Assembly: GCF_031877795.1 (NCBI RefSeq)
Contig: NC_133948.1
Coordinates: forward strand, 16,570,948-16,634,947
Source: Strix aluco
Taxonomy: Eukaryota > Chordata > Aves > Strigiformes > Strigidae
Length of the DNA: 64,000 nucleotides
Direction: 5' to 3'
Part shown: positions 42,244-52,742 of the stretch, piece after piece
How positions within the stretch are numbered: position 1 is the first letter of the stretch
Layout: each line of letters opens with the position of its first letter
Program-made: the position numbers and the translations under genes
The notes under the pieces: model-generated
Databases searched by the model: none
Told to the model about the DNA's origin: nothing
Seen by the model: only the letters and a program-made list of their open reading frames with translations

Positions 42244-43097
42244 ATGGCTGAAAAGGAGGCCACGGCAGAGCGGGAGCCCGCGGCCGACAGCCCCAGTGAG
42301 TTCAGTATCTTTATTAAGTCTTGGTTTGGCAAAACTTTTGTCATCCCAGTGACTCTGGATACCAGCGTCTCGGAGCTTAAGGCCAAGCTGAACGCACAGG
42401 ACTCCTCCCTGGTCCCCGAAATGGGAAGGCTGATCTACTGTGGCAGACAGTTGGAGGACAAACAAACCCTGCGATACTATAAAATCGAACACGAGTCCTG
42501 TTTGCATCATGTAGAAAGACGTAAATACAGGGTGACCTGGGGGAGGTGGGTGAGGGTCCATTTGAAGGTGGGAGAGGGAGAATGGTGCAGATCGGGGTGT
42601 CTCCTGAGGAGGGACCCCGGCCCAGTGCGCAGGCAGGAGCCCCCACAGGCAGGAGGGAAGGGGCAAGGTGGCTGCAGCTGCGGCTGCACCAGGGAGCTGC
42701 CGGAGCACTGGAAGGTGGGAGGAGTGCGAGGGCCCAGGGATGCACCTCTGCAGGAAGAAGGCAGGAGGGAGAGGAAGGACTCTGCTCCTGGAAGCTGAGC
42801 AAGAAATCTGCTCTCAGTATGGCAGTGGGGAGGGATGGGGAAGCAGAGGCTGGGACTGTGTTCTCAGCCCCACAGTGCACTGACCTCCTGGGACGGGCAG
42901 CTGGGTGGGACTCCCGGTAGCTTGGTCCGAGTGGGCACAAACCAGCAGGAAGAGGTTTTGTAGCAAAGGCATGAAGAAGAGGGAGAGGTTGGTCAGCGGA
43001 TGGGATACTCCTCTGGATGTGACCTGGCTCCTGACCTCTCCTCTGCTTTGTGTTGCTGTTGCAGTGCGAGGTGGTGGTGAAGATCTCAAGCTTCCAG
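42244..43097 (+). CDS. UBL exons 1 and 2 (ubiquitin-like domain with LRGG tail)
   Basis: Exon 1 (42244-42520) starts at ATG in a GAGATGG context and encodes residues 1-92. Exon 2 (43065-43097, 33 bp) completes the domain. Residues 20-96 align with ubiquitin end to end with a one-residue insertion (GKT, KAK, RLI, GRQLED, TL, ES-LH). Ile64 and Val90 match the Ile44/Val70 patch. Positions matching ubiquitin Lys48 and Lys63 are Arg68 and His83. The Leu93 codon is split C|TG across the intron and is followed by Arg-Gly-Gly-Gly. The match of the joined sequence to the ubiquitin tail is the main evidence for donor GAC|GTAAAT over a later GT. Confidence 0.88.
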
Positions 43098-46000
43098 GTA
43101 AGGTCATGCCCTGGTCCTCACTGACAACCTGGTGCTGTGGGGCTGGTGGAGCTGCATGGTGGTGAGCGTAGGACCTCAACTCACTGCATGGTGGTGAGCA
43201 TGTCCCTGCCAAGGCTCATGGAGTGGAAGTTGTGGTAGACGTGGGAGCATGTGGTAGTACACGAGGGGACTAGTGTGGTTGATGGGATCAGGAAGGTTGG
43301 GTGAAGGCTGCTTCAGGATGGTTTCTTCTCCCAAACATGAGGCAAAAATGACAATGTCTTCCTGTTCTAGTCACAGAGCTTGTCACACAGGGACCAGTCT
43401 ATCCGCGATCTCTGTCAGAAGAGGCCTTAAAGAGCGCAGAGGTGAGGTCTCGCAGGACACGATGCCTGAGGCTGGGGTGCCTGAGTGAGGATCACCATGG
43501 GGCTGGGGAGGAAGGCACAGCTGCAGCGCGTGGGCTCACAGCCAGCCCTGAGGATGGGCAGTCCGGCACTGCCCATCGCCACCACGGCACCGTGCAGGGT
43601 GGCAGGAGCTGGTGGGCGCTGCCCTCAGCCCCCGGAGAGGGACCTCACCCTTCCGGCAGGCCAGGCGGGCACAGCTCCCGCGCCAGCCTGTTCCTCCCTG
43701 CAGGAGCGGGGCGCAGGGCCAGCACTACACCTGATGCTGGGGATGTTGCTTATGCTCTCAGAAGAGCTCTCCTCCTGCCTCCAGCAGGCAAGCACAGCTG
43801 GAAGGGAGAACTATAGCTTGCAAGTGTTTTCTGCTCTGTTCCCCTCTGCAGGAGACACGTCACAGGCTGAAGCTGGGCTCATTACCGTGGAAGAACTGTG
43901 GCTGCGTGGGGGAGGTAAGGGCTTTGCCAGTCCTGGCAGGGCACTGTCGCACCCAAAGGAAATGGCACAGCAGGGAGCCTGGGACTGACCCTGGCTGTCA
44001 CCTGGGAGGGTGGGTGTGCCTTCAAAACCTGTTATTCACAGCAATTCTTCATCCTCCAGAAGAGTCTGGTCTCTTGCTACACAAACTCAGCACGCGCTGC
44101 CCCAGTTCTCAAGTTTGTGGGAAGGCAAATTCCATTTGCTCGCATCCCAAATTTATTCTCGCTGCTAAACATTTCATCTGCCTGTAGCCACTGTCCTCTC
44201 TGCTGATACACCATGGCAGAGAGGGAACAGCCCAGGCTTTGCTCACAAGCAAGTCAGCAGGCAACATTTTCTCTCTCAGGAAACAGAAACTTTCCTATCT
44301 GGAATTCCCATTTGCAAAATACATTCTAAAAATCAGTGGGTGAAACACATAGTTTGGAGCTGTGGGAGCTGCTCTGTGTGTTCACCCATTATCTTTCCTA
44401 CTGATGCATGGGAGATGCATGGACTCACTGATGCCTTCCCCACCCCAGTGGCATCTACTCAAGTGGGACTAAGTGTTCAGTCCTTCTGGCTGTGCCTCCA
44501 CACAGGATTTCTCCTGGGCACCACTACAGGGATCCACGTTAAAGGGGCCAAGAGCCTCAGACACGGCCAGTGCTTGTTTCAGATCCCAGGGCAGAGGAGT
44601 TGACAGTCAATGATTTTTCTGTCCTCTTCACTGATGAGAGTGATGCCTTCTGGGCACCAGGCAGCAGCTGCTGATCCGCCGCTGTGAGGATCTGAGCTCC
44701 CATGCCAAGCTGCATTGTGCTTCACTGTAAATCCCAACATGCCTCAAGCAGCACCCAGTGTGCAACACTCCATTCAGTCCCAAACTGGCCACACATGTGT
44801 TGCAGATTCTTTCAGAAATGATGCCGACGATAACCCTAGACGTTTCGGAGGACCGCACCGTGTACTGGTAAGAGCTGTTGGGTGATGTGGGAGCACGTTC
44901 CAAAAGCCTTGTCCCAGGTGGAATGAGCCTGTCATCCCTCCCACCTGCAGCGCTCGCCTCTGGCGTCCAGGCACCTTCCGGTGCTCCATCACAGGCCTTG
45001 CCTTTGTGGTGAATTCGGCAGTGACCATCACCTACAGTTACGCCACGTGGAATGCACACCTGAGCGAGGCTGACCAGGAAATGTGGGTACCCGCTGGACC
45101 CCTCTTCCGCATCCAGGTGCAGCGTGGGGTCGTGCAGGCAGTGGAGCTCCCCCACTTCATGTGTCTGGCAGGTATGGCAGCCACAGGGACCTCGATCTCC
45201 CGAGCCACCATCCCTCAGCTTGTCCACCCCTGGGGACCTCTCTGGCTCCTCTCTAGGCAGGGCCAAATTCTCCCTTCCTTCTGAGGTAGCCTGTACTCCC
45301 TTGTATTCTTTCGCTTTGCTTTGCGTCCTTCGTGCTTCTCTCACTTTCTATCAAGCCGTCGCAGTGGTCCCTTCCCCAGCTCCCACTCCATACCACCAGC
45401 CCCTCCTCCCCCACCCTCTCCTCCCAGCTCCCACGATGACCCCGGGCACTACCCCAGCCCAGCTGCTGAGCTGCCCCTGGGGTCCCCTGGCGGGTTTCTC
45501 AGTTCTTTGCATCTGACAACAGCCATCTCTGCTCTGCTCCACCAGGACAGGAGCCAGACGGCTGCGCCCACTCACAGGCTGGACCACCCCGGGGTGGGGT
45601 GCAATAGGTCAGAGCTGGCGTGGGCAGCAGAATAAGTGCAACAAAATTGTTAATTTTCATGTAAGCAACTTGAGGAGCCACAAGGCTTGGAGTTGGGTCT
45701 TCCACCCTGTTAATGGGCAGAGGAGCATCAGCACCTGCAGCTGGGCTGCAGAGCGTGCAGAGGAGTCCCTGTCCCTGTGCTGGGGGGCCCTGACACAGGC
45801 CCTGGGTGTACTGGCCAAGGGACTCTTGCTGGCAAATTCATGTCCTCTTCCAAAACAGAGCACACTGCAAAAGGAGTTTCTTGTTGTGTGCCTCCATCTC
45901 CTGCCCAGGGCTTGGCAAGCACAGCCATGTCAGACAGAAGGTGGCTCTACACACTCTTCACTGATATAGCTGTGCTAAGCAAAATGCTGTAATTATATTA

Positions 46001-49000
46001 ATCTGTCAGGTTAATAGCAAAGTGTGCTCCAGAGATAATCGGGGTGACTGGCATCAGCAGAGCTCTCTGACCCAGTCATCCCTAGGGATGTCACCTCGGG
46101 ATGTTCAGGCTGCTCTGGTGAGCACCATGCAGTGGGCATCTGCCTCCCCAGTACGTGGCGGTGTGGCGCTTAGATGCAGGATGCTGCACGGGTGCAGTCT
46201 GACAATTTTCATGGTCCCAAGCTGCCACCTTCAGATTTACAGTGTTCTGAGCCTGCAAGAAGACTGCCAAAGACCTGCAACTCCCTTCTGAGCCCCAAAA
46301 GCCCAGGGCACACATGGCACCTAAAGTAGAGCATGTCATCATGTGTGGGCACGTGTCTCCTTTCTGCTGCTAAAGCCTTAAAGAGAAGGAGACAGCCTGA
46401 GAGTGTGCCAGGATGACTAAACAGAACCTTGTTGCCTTTGCTGTCTCTTGCAGGACATGTAGATACCAGCCTGTGCTCCATTGCCCACTTCAAATCTGGG
46501 AAGATGACTCTGGAGAAACCAGACAGAGTGATAGCTTTCTCTGCAACCCTGAGTAATCCTAACTTCTCACTGCTTGGTGTGGTTTGGAGGAAGTTACGTT
46601 CGACCTTAAATTCAATCCCTGTTCACTCCCTGGTGCTGATCTTCCATCAGCTCAGAGCTGCAGATACAACACTTCACCTCTACCTGATCCCAGATGACAA
46701 ATCTTTGAAGGAGGTATGACAGAGGGAGCTAGGCCGGGCTAAAAAAGGATGACATCTGGGGTGGCTGCAGTAGCAGGGACTGGATTTGATAAGCAGAGAC
46801 ACCTCCCAGTTTTTCTGCCACCAGCCTCTAATTCACACAGAGCCCTGTGCCCCCATCTCCCACCACACGACAGCATCCTTGTGCCTGCCTCCCTCACTCT
46901 CTTTCACAGATGCCTCCAGGAATCACACTCCATGTTTTTGGCTGGGACAGCAGGTCCTAGCATGAGTGAAGCCGTGGCACGGGGTGCTCTGCAACACAGA
47001 GCAGATGCAGGACTTGCTGGCCACTGCCAGGCACAGCAATAGGTGGCTGCATACCAGCTGTTCTGTTGTGTGCCAGCCCTCACCCTCTTTCACAGAGTGA
47101 TGGTGCATTGCCCTGCCAAAGTTCCTGCCTGCACATGGCAGGTTCCCACCTGCACCGAGCGGGGGTTGCCACCCCCTGAAGCACAGCACTGCCTGTAATA
47201 CACACTCAGCAGTCTGTTCTGGTTGGGTCAGTCTCTTATCTTCTTGACCTTCTGAGGGCTACCTCAGCTCACAGCTCTTTTTCCTTTTCCTCTCTCAAAA
47301 GCGATGCTTACTGTTTGCAGGCCATTGAACAACAAGAAAAGAACTGGAATTCAAAGCTTATTCCCAAGCCTCCTCCATTTAACCGTCTCTTCTTTGGCTG
47401 CACTTACCGGGTGATCTGTACAAACTCTGTGGAGATAATGCCTGAAGTAAGTGGGATCTTTCTCTTTTTTTTTTCTGGTGAAATAGAAAATACAAGAAGT
47501 CTCTGTCTTTAGCCATATTCTGCTACCAGAATCTGTCTTACTGGGTCTCAGAGCCAGAGATGCAGGGAGCTGTACTGGTTACAAGTGAGCATGGAGCACA
47601 CTCCAAAGCCCCAAAGGGGCTGCGTTTGTTTTTCCTTATGGCAGAAATCATAATGTGGGACTTGTTGGACTTACCATAGGTGCATATCAAGAAGGAGTTT
47701 CAGAGGTGTTGACTCAGTTGTGGTCCCAAGTCCTTCATCTTCATCTTCTCTGCAGTGAGTTTCCTTCAGCTTAGGAGCAGGACCGGAGAGAGACCTTCTC
47801 TCTATGCTGTGATGTAACATGACTTCTTTCTCTACTGGAAGTCCATTTGAGCATTTCTGATTTTGAGCACCACGCCCCGTGGCAATCAGATTGCAATGGC
47901 TGGGAAAATCTGGGAAGATTTGGCCATTGAGCCCTTGTGTTTACTTGTTTTACACAGAAGTTTGTGACATCCTGAGAGCAGGTGACAGTCCAATCACACG
48001 TTCACGGCTGGTTATGAAAATCTCCTTTCATGGGTCTGCACTGCATCATGATTATGAAAAGGGAATCAGAGAAACTTAGGTTGGATTAGGAACTCAGGAG
48101 GTCTCTGGTCCAACCTCTTGCTCAAAGCATGTGAAAAGTTGGATCAAGGTGCTCAAAGCATTTTAAAGTTGGATCAAGGTGGTCAAGGACGTGTCCAGTC
48201 AAGGTTGAATATCTCCAGGGATGGACATACCACAGCCTCTCTGCATCTCTAGTCCAGTGGTGTAACACCCTCATTGTGATTTTTTTTTCCCTGTTATCTA
48301 ACTGGAGTTTCCCTTGCTGCAGCCTGTGACCGTTGCCTCTCATCACATTGCTGTGCACATCCAGGAGGCTGGCTCTGTCTTTTCTGTAGTCCTCCTTCAC
48401 ATTCACATAGTTAAAAGTCAGTGATTAGTTCTCCTTGTGACTTTCTCTCCTCCATGTTGAACAAACCCAATTCCCTTTGCCTCTGCTTGCATATCGTGCA
48501 CTACAGCCTGGAACTGGCCTTGCTCCAGGATGTCCATGTCTTTCTTGTACTGGGAAGCCCCAAACTGGACCCAGTGTCCAAATGTGGGCTCAGAAGTGCT
48601 GAACAGAGGTCAGGAATCCTTGACCTCACTGTGCTGGCTGTGGTCTTGCTAATACAGGCCAAGATGCAGCCAGCCTTGGCTGCTAGGGCACACTGCTGAC
48701 TCCTGTTCAACTTGCATGCCCACCAGGACTCCCAAGTCCTTCCCTGCAAAGATGTTTTCTGTGTCCACCTGCCCAGGCTCTTGTCTGGTGTTCCATCCCA
48801 GACACAGGACTCTACATTTGCCTTTGCTGAATTGCACGAGCTTCCTGCCAGCTAAGTTCTCCAGCCTTTCCAGGTTCCTCTGACAGGCACCCCTCCCCTC
48901 CAGCTTATTCATCACCCCCGCCTTGCAGCTGCAACTGAGCTACTACCAAGCTGAGCTGAGCGCAGCCCCAACCAGCTTAATTGAGAGACAGTCTTAAACC

Positions 49001-52000
49001 CATGAATCACGAGGTAGGGTTTGGTTTTCCCACTTCCTGGAATGATTAGGTAGTAACTGGGCACTCTGCCTTGAAGAGCAGTTGTGAAGATGACAGAGTC
49101 AAGCTCTCAGCAGTGTCAGGTAAAATCCATAAATTGTAACCCGGAAAGTTCAGGCCAAATGTTAGGAAAAATTTTATCACTTGGTGGAGATGCAGCCATC
49201 AGAGAAGGTTAGAAGGTGGTGACTCTCTACTTTTTGAGATTTTCAGACTCAGACTGAAGCAGATCTAGACTTGACATTGGTCCCTCTTTGAGAGGCAGGT
49301 CGGACAAGACACTCCAGAGGTCCCTTCCAACCAAAATTTCTGATATTGGCAGCCCTGACATGTGCATCTTCCCTTGTCTTTTCCCTTCTGGTACGGCCAG
49401 GAAACACAGGCTGTTGTGAATTCCCCATGAATGTGAATTTACAGCGGCTCATCACAGTGAGAGAGGCTCAACTTGCTTCCTACCTTTACAGGAACACTTT
49501 CCATTCTGCTACAAGAGTCCGAAGGAACAGCAGCTCTTTGTTGAGATCTACATCAAGAACATGACAGAGGAAGTTGGGTTCTTTATGATAGACACCCGTG
49601 ATGAAACCGTGGTCTGGAGGGCATCACTGAGATCAGGTGGGAACAGCAGGTCCATCTAGGGGCTCGTTCGCCTTAGCTAAAGCAGAGGTGCACCACCCAA
49701 GCAGACCTCACGCATTCTGTGGCCACAGCAGTCCTGCAAGGAAAGCAAACCCTGAGTAGGCATCAATTGGCCACTGAAGAATAGGGACCTGAAAGGACAC
49801 CCCAATGTCAGCATACCTGCGCTTCAGATTTAATGTGGAGTTTCAGATGCTGGGGTTTAAGAGATCATGACAGCACTGTCGTGTCTCTCTGTTCTCTTGC
49901 TACTGTTTGCATAGAAATCTGACTTATTTTTAAAAGTCCATTAATGTAACGAACACCCACGGACGTGCTAGTGCAACCACTATGCGATGCAGAGGAGGTA
50001 AGGAGAATACCAAACTCTTAGTGAAAATCAGCATCAAAAACCTACATGTTCCAGCCAGCACTACTCTTCCAGATTTGCTGGGTGTGACACCAGTGTGCAA
50101 CAACACCTGGAGCACACAGGATGGGGACAAGGCCAGATGCACCAGAGCCTGCCTTCACCACAAGTTTCTGCTCGCAGTGGCATCACAAACGTGGCACGCA
50201 GCAAGCCTGCTGGTGGTGTGAGGACTGCTCTCGTGTGGCAGCAGGAGACCACTGCTTACAACTATTCTGCTTTAGGGCTGACCGCCCTGACTTGGGTCCC
50301 ATGCAGAACTTCAGTCAGGACAGCAGCTGATGGAGGCAGAAGGAGCAGGGTTAGCAATGGCGGGTGCCAAAACTTGTGTTTGTGTGTCCTCTGGGAGGAC
50401 AGGGGCGCACCCAGCTCCAGGGCAGCAGGTTCCTCATCACACCTCTCTTCCCAGCTGCTGCAGGGTCAGCTCAGCAGCCACTGCACATGCCATTAACTTC
50501 ATGTAGCAACCCCCATGTGTGGCTTCTGCTGTGGGAAAGCTGGGCAGAGGAGCTGCAGGGCAGCATCTCGCAGGCGCAGGGTATGGTGCTGCTCAGTGTG
50601 CTTTGAGACCCCTAATCCAGCACCCCCTAAAAGTAACACCTACAACCACACAGAGCCCAAGACCTTTTACTGAGTTCTCCAGAGACGGCCAGGAACAGCA
50701 GGAGGAATGGCTGACGGCTTCGTGGAGGATTGGACACCTCAGGAAGATGTCATGGGAGGTTAGGCACCATCACTTCAGTGATGGCATATTCAGTGATCTC
50801 CCTTCTTTCTCTTTCAGGTGATATTGCTCTTCCAGTCTCCAAGGCCTTGTCAGGTCAGTACAGTGTTTCAGAGCTGCATTTCTAGAGTTTTAATCAGTTT
50901 CTTTGGAGCTCACCATCCTCTGGTTTAAATATCAGCCTCTTTTCTCATCCTTATGATAGCTTCTAGCCAAAAAGCCTCGAAAGCTGCAACCTCAAACCTT
51001 TATTCCCACATTCCTGGCAGCATGCTCTGTGCCATGCTGGTGGGGAAAGTGGCATAGTGCAGATGACCCTCCAAACTGGTTTGCCTCCTTTGGAGACAGA
51101 CACGCTGTTACAGAGAATGAGCTGCAGCTAGTACAGTTCACAGTCCATAAATAATATTTCACTGAGGTTCTAGAAGCGGTACAGCTGCTGTGTCACATAC
51201 AGTCAGCTCGGGGGCTGGTGGCCCCTGTACCAGACAGGAGTGTTTTCCATAGGAGTGACCCCCCTGGGAAGGAGCCTGCAACCAGACGTTGGCAGAGGGG
51301 ATGGCAGGGCCACCTTTACAGCAGCTCCAGGAGTTTCTGACCAAGGGGCTTTGCTTTCCACTTGCTTCAAATGCAGTGACAACAACATGCTGCCCAGCAG
51401 TTTTGTGGGTGTTATTCCAGCCTAATTTCTCCAGGGCCACAATACTTCAGCATTGCCTCTTGCATCTCATCTTACTAATGAAAAACCAGATCCAAGAGGA
51501 CACCCAGTCAGCTAAGCCACAGGTTGAGGCAGATAGGCCTGGCTCAGATAGACACAAATTTGGATGTTTCAGTGTTACTCTTTTTCCTTGCCATGCACAT
51601 GGAGTCACCACACTGACCTACAACCTGCCTGGGAGCACCGGGAGCGTACGGTGGCAGACAAGAGCAAGGACAGGACAAGGGGCAATGGTTTTAAACCAAA
51701 AGAGAGTAGGTTTAGATTGGACGTAAGGAAGAAATATTTTACACTGAGGGTGGTGAGACACTGGCACAGATTGCCCAGAGAAGTTGTGGATGCCCCATCA
51801 CTGCAAGGGTTCAAGGTCAGGCTGGATGGGACTTTCGGCAACCTGATCTGGTGAAAGACGACCCTGGCCATGCCAGGGGGTTGGACTAGGTGGTCTTTAA
51901 AGGTCCCTTCCAACCCAAACCACCCTGTGATTCTACAAGGAGATGCCCGTCTGGGTGCCCACTTCAGCCAGGAGGACTGGGTGGAGGCTCGGGAGGAGAA

Positions 52001-52742
52001 GCCGGGCAACGCTGCCCACCGCACTGCCCCGCGGCTTGCTCAGCACCCCACTGGCACCAGCTGCCTTTCCAGGTTCTGTTTATTTACAAGCAGCTTGCAA
52101 TCCTGTGAAATTTCAGAGCTTTGAGCAACCTGTGCTCTGAGTTAGGAGCTCCTCACCTTGCAGGGCAGGGGGCAGGATGGTAACCTCACACCCAGACACT
52201 GCAGGAGTCCCAGGGAGGGGCAGTTGCTGGCGGCTGATGGGGGCTGCCACCGACCTCACCTCCTCCAGCTCGGACTTCATGTTCCCATCCCCTTCCTTGC
52301 CCTGTCCCCAGTGTTCCCACCACTGGTGCAGCAGGTGCCTTTTTGGTGGAAGGATGGAGACACGTGGCTGTGGGACAGGGTGCACAGCCATGGTGTCTGT
52401 TGGCTTAGGGTGCCACGTACCACAGCGTGGCACTCAGCTGCGTGCAGCACAGTAACATCAGCTTTGTGTATGGTAGGTGCAGCCTTCATGAAGAAGCACA
52501 AGACCAATCTTTGCTCCAGGATGATGCAGCTCTCCACCATTCTGCTACACTTACGGGATGCAAACGTCATCAACAGCGATGAAGAAGAGGAGGTGAAACG
52601 TCAAGACACGAGGCAAAGGAAGAACCAAGTTTTGCTGGAGCTAGCTGAGAAGAAAGGAGTGGAGGCCCAGGAACAGCTCTATCAGGTCCTCCGGATGAAA
52701 GACCCATACCTCATCTCAGACCTGGAGAAGTCCACCAGCTAG
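42244..52742 (+). CDS. UBL-FIIND-CARD protein: ubiquitin-like domain fused to an NLRP1/CARD8-type FIIND-CARD module
   Basis: Reconstructed from GT-AG exons in phase: 42244-42520, 43065-43097, 43371-43441, 43852-43914 (tentative), 44806-44867, 44951-45171, 46454-46713, 47321-47446, 49492-49636, 50818-50853 and 52477-52742 (stop TAG 52740-52742). This gives 519 aa, or 498 without the tentative exon. Order: a 19-aa leader; a ubiquitin-like domain (20-96) ending LRGG; a short linker; FIIND, made of ZU5 (about 149-280) and UPA (281-about 430); and a C-terminal CARD (about 433-519). The FIIND keeps Phe280-Ser281 in NPNFSLLG with His254 27 residues before the serine, as in autoproteolytic NLRP1. In NLRP1 and CARD8, degradation of the N-terminal half frees UPA-CARD to recruit caspase-1. 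No NACHT or LRR is present. Nearest relatives are CARD8/NLRP1; the UBL fusion is unlike both. Exon boundaries are inferred, not confirmed by transcripts. Confidence 0.88.
43371..43914 (+). CDS. Linker exons 3 and 4 (exon 4 tentative)
   Basis: Exon 3 (43371-43441) follows a TTCTAG acceptor and encodes [20 protein letters not shown] and a few more residues, phase 1 to 0. Exon 4 (43852-43914, 63 bp, phase 0 to 0) has good flanking splice signals but encodes an unremarkable Cys-containing peptide. It can be skipped without changing frame, so it may be alternative or spurious. No domain is recognised in either. Confidence 0.55.
44806..45171 (+). CDS. FIIND ZU5 subdomain exons
   Basis: Exons 44806-44867 and 44951-45171 encode the start of FIIND. 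Recognisable blocks are [30 protein letters not shown] and VELPHFMCL, which match the conserved strands of the NLRP1/CARD8 ZU5 region. Phases 0-2-1 are consistent with neighbours. In the family, this region caps the C-terminal half and takes part in DPP9 binding. Confidence 0.9.
46454..46713 (+). CDS. FIIND exon with autoproteolysis site (ZU5-UPA boundary)
   Basis: Encodes [20 protein letters not shown] and onward through the cleavage region [11 protein letters not shown] to [11 protein letters not shown]. Phe codon 46564-46566 and Ser codon 46567-46569 match the Phe|Ser scissile bond of FIIND proteins. The histidine in AHFK lies exactly 27 residues before the Ser, the same spacing as His1186-Ser1213 of human NLRP1. 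The residue after the Ser is Leu, whereas I recall Pro in NLRP1 and CARD8. Confidence 0.92.
47321..50853 (+). CDS. FIIND UPA subdomain exons and UPA-CARD linker
   Basis: Exon 47321-47446 encodes AIEQQEKNW to VEIMPE. Exon 49492-49636 encodes [20 protein letters not shown] to [12 protein letters not shown]. Exon 50818-50853 encodes the linker [12 protein letters not shown]. These match the UPA core of CARD8/NLRP1 (LFVEIY and DETVVW blocks). Phases are 0-0, 0-1 and 1-1. In the family the UPA promotes oligomerisation of the freed C-terminal fragment. Confidence 0.9.
48075..48935 (-). repeat. Old CR1 LINE fragment, minus orientation, with internal tandem duplication
   Basis: Diverged CR1-like peptides read on the minus strand ([42 protein letters not shown]). 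The left end carries a degenerate CR1 3' terminus. A roughly 30-bp stretch is duplicated in tandem at about 48120-48180 (AAGTTGGATCAAGGT appears twice). It lies in the intron between the fifth and fourth last coding exons of the UBL-FIIND-CARD gene. Confidence 0.75.
49130..49352 (+). repeat. CR1-type LINE 3' fragment
   Basis: Degenerate plus-oriented CR1 tail, recognised from the segment AGAGGTCCCTTCCAACC near 49316-49332 and the upstream untranslated stretch. It ends about 140 bp before a UPA-encoding exon. Confidence 0.6.
51655..51940 (+). repeat. CR1 LINE 3' fragment
   Basis: Plus-strand peptides [20 protein letters not shown] and [20 protein letters not shown] are followed by the CR1 3' end GGTCCCTTCCAACCC and a terminal TGATTCTAC. 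It lies in the intron before the CARD exon. Confidence 0.92.
52477..52742 (+). CDS. CARD exon (C-terminus)
   Basis: The last exon, with acceptor ATGGTAG. It encodes about 87 residues predicted as a six-helix CARD, ending [10 protein letters not shown] and stop TAG. Blocks such as [23 protein letters not shown] and [16 protein letters not shown] fit the CARD8/NLRP1 pattern. In those proteins the CARD nucleates caspase-1 filaments, CARD8 doing so directly. No clear AATAAA follows within about 1 kb, so the 3' end is not placed. Confidence 0.9.

Follow-up and report, generated by a model that had tools for sequence, protein, structure and literature searches.

Here we describe a gene that joins a ubiquitin-like domain (UBL) to the FIIND and CARD otherwise found in the sensors NLRP1 and CARD8. 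It lies on the forward strand of contig NC_133948.1 of the owl Strix aluco (assembly GCF_031877795.1), at positions 42244–52742 of the 64,000-nucleotide stretch analyzed, referred to in the following as the window. The encoded protein consists, in this order, of a UBL, a disordered linker, a FIIND with its ZU5 and UPA halves, and a CARD. The FIIND–CARD sensor is a known type; its novel N-terminal domain, the UBL, is new. We consider it rather probable that the owl gene is an intact bird sensor of the NLRP1/CARD8 group, built on the CARD8 plan and acting by functional degradation and recruitment of caspase-1.

Domain organization and autoproteolysis site

The exons at these coordinates join in phase, as the original prediction, made from the letters of the DNA alone, had proposed with exact positions. 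The coding sequence is made up of eleven exons, all with GT–AG borders; it starts at the ATG at 42244, stops with a TAG whose last base is 52742, has no frame break and gives a product of 519 amino acids. Over its full length this product matches P0001, annotated as CARD8-like isoform X1 of Strix uralensis, which has the same length (100% cover, ≈99% match, 4 of 519 residues differing). A Pfam search of the product gave four matches above their curated cut-offs: ubiquitin at residues 22–93 (E = 5.1e-16), FIIND at 162–292 (E = 3.5e-43), UPA-FIIND at 299–416 (E = 1.3e-30) and CARD at 434–516 (E = 3.1e-15). A fifth family, another ubiquitin-like model, fell under its cut-off, and no NACHT, LRR or PYD was found in the product by Pfam.

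The AlphaFold2 model of P0001 contains three confident modules, which match the solved structures of ubiquitin, the NLRP1/CARD8 FIIND and the CARD8 CARD, the UBL having the beta-grasp fold. Linker residues 94–139 have a predicted local distance difference test (pLDDT) score below 50. The profile search, the model and the structure matches thus bear out the domain order that had been read from the exons, including the lack of NACHT, LRR and PYD.

The protein shares with human CARD8 the ZU5 and UPA halves of the FIIND, the F|S site, a CARD8-type CARD, the absence of NACHT, LRR and PYD, and an N-terminal part that is less conserved than the rest. To our knowledge, human CARD8 has no UBL. CARD8-type sensors have a disordered N-terminus and no further N-terminal domain, whereas the owl protein begins with a UBL and has its disordered linker after it; human CARD8 is described as having a long disordered N-terminus in that place (PMC10249858, PMC9213247). 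With human and rat NLRP1 the protein shares FIIND–CARD at a similar score, and NLRP1 is the best structural match of the owl FIIND. It differs from NLRP1 in having no NACHT, LRR or PYD and in a CARD that is far less similar to that of NLRP1.

When the owl FIIND was aligned with NLRP1 and CARD8, both the His of the AHF motif and the F|S site were seen to be retained. Conservation of H254, F280 and S281 reaches 90% or more in alignment A1, which has 53 rows and is distinct from the 53 UBL-tail representatives described below, and a pattern search found both motifs in 142 of 159 relatives. Four of the remaining 17 lack one half of the FIIND by their Pfam marks (P0114, P0141, P0142 and P0143). From its sequence, the owl FIIND appears to keep an intact autoproteolysis site.

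By analogy with the family, the FIIND of the bird protein would cleave itself at the Phe–Ser bond to give a UBL–ZU5 half that restrains the UPA–CARD half. Once the proteasome destroyed the N-terminal half (functional degradation), UPA–CARD would be released, form filaments and recruit caspase-1 directly, without ASC; caspase-1 would then cleave gasdermin A. The UBL would be the sensing or triggering end.

Alternatively, the protein could be a regulator and not an activator, buffering DPP8/9 or CARD partners and dampening another pathway. A CARD8 fragment that retains ZU5 is reported to be inhibitory in a complex with DPP8/9 (PMC9213247), and four deposited relatives carry no CARD mark (P0084, P0087, P0110 and P0115, one of them a partial model). 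We regard this as unlikely, because the owl gene has a CARD and what appears to be an intact autoproteolysis site, both dispensable for a pure inhibitor.

The tail of the ubiquitin-like domain

The owl UBL ends in VERLRGG, which includes the RLRGG of ubiquitin, and the next residue is Gly. The LRGG, with its diglycine, falls at ubiquitin positions 73–76, and the tail is internal to the protein unless it is cut. Its end is coded by an exon of its own, the 33-base exon 2 (43065..43097), which runs straight into the disordered linker; this corrects the original prediction, which had not remarked on the LRGG tail, on the spread of the gene to turtles or on its existing CARD8-like annotation. Exon 2 has GT–AG borders and phase 1 on entry and exit, and its residues are identical in P0001.

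The tail was followed in a set of 67 UBL-marked proteins, picked by hand from the domain tables of the relatives; P0160, P0162 and P0163 were inspected but not counted. Leaving out 14 of the 67 as isoforms, near duplicates or repeated loci gave 53 representatives. The motif [LIVM]R[GA]G follows the UBL in 37 of them, as LRGG in 29, IRGG in two, VRGG in two and LRAG in four, and the residue after it is Gly in 32, Ser in four and Asp in one. The five consecutive columns most like ubiquitin are those of ubiquitin residues 72–76, whose mean over the 53 proteins is 0.70, compared with 0.34 in the body (p = 0.009). Taking a single protein for each order or family gave 0.82 and 0.35 (n = 21, p = 0.001). 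These p values are rough, as the test assumes independent columns and the proteins are related by descent. Both comparisons were made on all 53 or all 21 proteins without selecting on the motif, and the tail is present in 17 of the 21.

The simplest reading that accounts for all the parts is that the ubiquitin system acts on the UBL as a bait or as a degron, and that UPA–CARD would be freed when the UBL is removed or destroyed. The RLRGG tail, followed by Gly or Ser and a disordered linker, would be a candidate deubiquitinase site, and a cut after LRGG would expose an N-terminal Gly, an N-degron of the kind that ZYG11B reads on cleaved NLRP1. We offer this tripwire of deubiquitinase cut and N-degron as a tentative hypothesis. 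It is equally speculative that the UBL is a ubiquitin decoy which senses deubiquitinating (or deISGylating) activity, the cut at LRGG leading by way of the Gly N-degron to degradation of the ZU5 half and release of UPA–CARD. The UBL, its tail and the Gly or Ser behind it are placed where NLRP1 and CARD8 have tripwires. Rhinovirus 3C protease is reported to cleave NLRP1 so that an N-terminal Gly is exposed, which is read by ZYG11B, and loss of ZYG11B impairs activation (PMC13379236). The N-terminus of CARD8 is described as a fast-changing tripwire for viral proteases, with the F|S site required (PMC10249858).

Several points weigh against a cut at the tail. The motif is missing from the deposited models of 16 of the 53 representatives; judged by eye, nine of these look like a skipped or misphased exon 2 and seven like true change. 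Among the 37, P0115 has its motif in a repeat array and not directly at the end of the UBL, and the LRAG tails of four proteins (three from hawks or eagles, one from a sandpiper) may be cut poorly. The hydrophobic surface formed by Leu8, Ile44, His68 and Val70, which is gripped by many deubiquitinases, is only partly kept (in 55%, 77%, 43% and 42%, respectively). Constant cutting by host deubiquitinases, with an N-degron at this place, would keep the sensor always active. Finally, human CARD8 is reported to be controlled by the 20S proteasome without ubiquitin, disordered stretches being removed regardless of sequence and even behind a folded tag (PMC9213247). Since the 20S proteasome acts on CARD8 in this manner, neither the LRGG nor an N-degron may be needed, and by analogy the same route could operate on the bird linker.

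A possibility at least as likely as the deubiquitinase tripwire, though itself less likely than not, is that the uncut UBL, or just the linker behind it, is a degron or proteasome handle. It would govern how fast the N-terminal half is turned over, as happens in ubiquitin-fusion degradation, and a change in turnover would trigger the sensor. Position 29 of ubiquitin is Lys or Arg in all 53 representatives (Lys in 46), compared to Lys in 14 of 53 at position 48 and in none of 53 at position 63, and Lys29 of ubiquitin serves in ubiquitin-fusion degradation. The ubiquitin-free 20S degradation of the N-terminal half that sets CARD8 activation (PMC9213247) fits such a handle. However, a handle leaves unexplained why the RLRGG tail is the most ubiquitin-like stretch of the domain, and position 29 is perhaps kept for structure.

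The UBL could also be an ordinary fusion leader, stripped from every molecule by host deubiquitinases as in the UBA52 and RPS27A precursors, in which case the working sensor would be a simple CARD8-like protein that begins with Gly. Like these precursors, the owl protein starts with a ubiquitin fold that closes with LRGG and precedes a second protein; the LRGG is exactly at the position it has in ubiquitin, with a small residue next. However, fusion leaders are usually true ubiquitin, whereas the UBL is divergent, its body being only ≈35% identical to ubiquitin in the 37 tail-bearing proteins, and its partner is an inflammasome-type protein. A permanently exposed N-degron would be dangerous, and the motif is absent from the 16 representatives mentioned above. 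We think a leader improbable. Both the handle and the leader bear on the UBL step only and are compatible with a sensor that acts by functional degradation and caspase-1 recruitment.

An RGG- or GGG-bearing piece is found between the UBL and ZU5 in several copies in gulls (P0041, P0087 and P0115) and in two copies in a quail (P0160), as if exon 2 had multiplied independently in the two groups.

CARD, caspase-1 and ASC

The owl CARD scored 53.6 bits to the CARD of CARD8 and 23.1 bits to the best NLRP1 CARD, and by this comparison it is of the CARD8 type. Human CARD8 is reported to engage caspase-1 directly and without ASC, whereas human NLRP1 requires ASC (PMC7794386). Pycard, the gene for ASC, is reported as undetected in chicken, zebra finch and turkey (PMC13076529). 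Chicken caspase-1 is described as having a CARD, and its dimerization through an engineered tag led to cleavage of gasdermin A and cell death (PMC10948149). Taken together, the components that a route without ASC would require are present or have been reported.

Two points count against direct recruitment of caspase-1. Doubts about the activity of chicken caspase-1 are cited in PMC13076529, and the owl protein has Q, S and L in place of D467, K469 and D473 of CARD8, residues proposed to contact caspase-1 (PMC7794386). Reading the caspase-1 contact off the human CARD8 residues was thus set aside, three charged ones being lost in the owl; as owl caspase-1 was not part of the sequence comparison, these changes would not be decisive as to the contact.

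The original prediction had proposed that a self-contained FIIND–CARD sensor could engage caspase-1 directly and thereby fill a gap left in chicken, which is usually described as lacking both ASC and NLRP1. The window itself is DNA of an owl, to which the argument from chicken does not apply. The chicken's lack of ASC agrees with the Pycard report. Its lack of NLRP1 is unconfirmed, a review stating that birds encode NLRP1 (PMC11599095), possibly because some UBL–FIIND–CARD genes bear NLRP1 names in databases. An ASC-free caspase-1 sensor is consistent with the type of the CARD. A table of turtle genes names both ASC and CARD8 (PMC8615003), and turtles share the architecture, so the fusion is not tied to ASC loss.

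Gene model, relatives and significance

Exon 1 (42244..42520, donor GT after 42520) carries the start codon, a short N-terminal extension and the UBL body with the Pfam ubiquitin match, and 92 of its residues were recovered at 100% by tblastn of the owl model. Downstream of exon 2, the disordered linker is coded by exon 3 (43371..43441), and exon 4 (43852..43914), also found in P0001, codes for the end of the linker and a Cys-rich stretch ahead of the ZU5 half; both have GT–AG borders and are in phase. A CxxC pattern ahead of ZU5 is present in 29 of the 53 representatives. The ZU5 half begins in exon 5 (44806..44867), with the Pfam FIIND match starting at residue 162, and continues through exon 6 (44951..45171). 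Exon 7 (46454..46713), which was aligned to NLRP1 and CARD8, holds the last part of ZU5, including the His of AHF, the putative autoproteolysis site NPNF|SLLG and the start of UPA. The UPA half continues in exons 8 (47321..47446) and 9 (49492..49636), followed by a short UPA–CARD linker in exon 10 (50818..50853) and by the CARD and stop codon in exon 11 (52477..52742), which gave the Pfam CARD match and has the CARD8 CARD as its top solved-structure match (E = 1.3e-13). All of these exons are on the + strand.

A join that skips exon 3 and reads exon 4 in the other frame was rejected, since this reading stays open through exons 4 and 5 and then runs into a stop in exon 6. In P0114, a predicted isoform X3 of Athene noctua, exon 2 is joined to a differently framed exon 4, the ZU5 exons are out of frame, and the frame is regained at UPA–CARD; the frame used by P0114 in the ZU5 exons is stopped in exon 6 of the owl window (44951–45171). 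Other predicted models vary within the FIIND: P0007, P0033 and P0036, from hawks and eagles, are isoforms with ≈60–70 additional residues inside the ZU5 half, and P0121, from the soft-shelled turtle Pelodiscus, has two consecutive ZU5 halves.

No second copy of the gene was found in the 64-kb window, the tblastn matches of the owl model outside the gene all having E of at least 0.17. Upstream, near 13.4 and 15.3 kb, are Rieske exons on the − strand that we take from their motifs to be those of an AIFM3-like gene, and downstream, at 55.9 kb, is a first exon on the + strand that we presume on the same grounds to belong to a POLE-like gene. The location fits the predicted place between AIFM3 and POLE.

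All four Pfam marks are found together in birds of many orders, the ratites among them (rhea, ostrich, galliforms, falcons, cranes, cuckoos, pigeons, eagles and owls) and also in turtles. The searches for relatives, made from a capped set of candidates, listed 120 matches of 152, 360 and 153, respectively, and among the matches listed there were none from crocodilians, lizards, passerines or ducks, which does not show absence; nor was there a named Gallus protein among the 120 of 152 and of 153. In databases the gene is already held under CARD8-like, NLRP1-like or "ubiquitin-like domain-containing" names. Cuculus, Phaenicophaeus, Tympanuchus and Mauremys each have at least two differing UBL–FIIND proteins, most of them with a CARD, which suggests duplication.

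Two of the relatives come from short contigs: P0040 (9 contigs, 32 sequences) and P0042 (5 contigs, 12 sequences) represent a full 538-residue protein on contigs of at most 2340 bases. Since the owl gene spans 10.5 kb, they appear to derive from spliced RNA. Among the matches listed, P0040 is nearest to a turkey protein over its whole length (87%) and to a partial Bambusicola protein (93% over 64%), and on this basis it is probably from chicken, as P0042 probably is too. The chicken may thus express the UBL–FIIND–CARD gene without annotation. In the soft-shelled turtle, a gene called CARD8 is listed as rising after bacterial infection, as is ASC, the table not stating whether the UBL or the PYD gene is meant (PMC8615003).

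It could be argued that the UBL exons and the FIIND–CARD exons are two genes fused by gene prediction, and many deposited bird proteins do lack a UBL mark (e.g., P0024 and P0025). Against this, every splice phase fits, full-length models exist in many birds and in turtles, the contigs of P0040 and P0042 could not hold a gene of such length in unspliced form, and many of the short proteins are labeled "partial". We consider two fused genes very improbable. A chance arrangement or a gene-prediction chimera was ruled out by the GT–AG borders, the fitting phases, the full-length database relatives and the tblastn matches.

In a tree of 25 FIIND–CARD rows, the UBL-bearing bird and turtle genes form one group (99/100), drawn beside turtle PYD–FIIND–CARD genes, with mammalian NLRP1 and CARD8 apart (92/94). 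The tree does not bring the bird gene closer to CARD8 than to NLRP1; in it the CARD8 branch is long, the root is a midpoint root only, 369 of 999 columns were kept, and several rows, including Strix, were untrimmed. The turtle proteins nearest to the UBL group as drawn (P0145–P0151) share its FIIND–CARD core but have a PYD in place of the UBL. Six of these seven are on contigs of at least 134 Mb, whereas the UBL genes of the same species (Mauremys mutica and Gopherus evgoodei) are on contigs of ≈34 Mb. As the bird and turtle UBL genes group together, the fusion would be at least as old as the turtle–bird split, unless it was made twice.

No paper linking FIIND with a ubiquitin-like domain, or CARD8 with birds and a ubiquitin-like domain, was found in the openly licensed literature, a scope that does not take in papers published in subscription journals; the gene is annotated in databases yet seemingly undescribed in the literature. 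In birds, ASC is apparently lacking while caspase-1 and a gasdermin that it can cleave are present. A CARD8-type protein whose range takes in ostrich, rhea and owls as well as turtles is a direct candidate for the bird caspase-1 switch. If the UBL is a ubiquitin decoy, a bird and turtle inflammasome would guard the ubiquitin system itself, a kind of trigger that the literature cited here does not describe for either NLRP1 or CARD8, and the multiplied RGG-bearing pieces of gulls and quail would be additional cut sites. The fusion to a ubiquitin fold that retains a cleavage-type tail suggests a new, testable way in which a FIIND sensor may be triggered, and UBL–FIIND–CARD proteins offer a natural case in which to separate sensing by cleavage from sensing by degradation.
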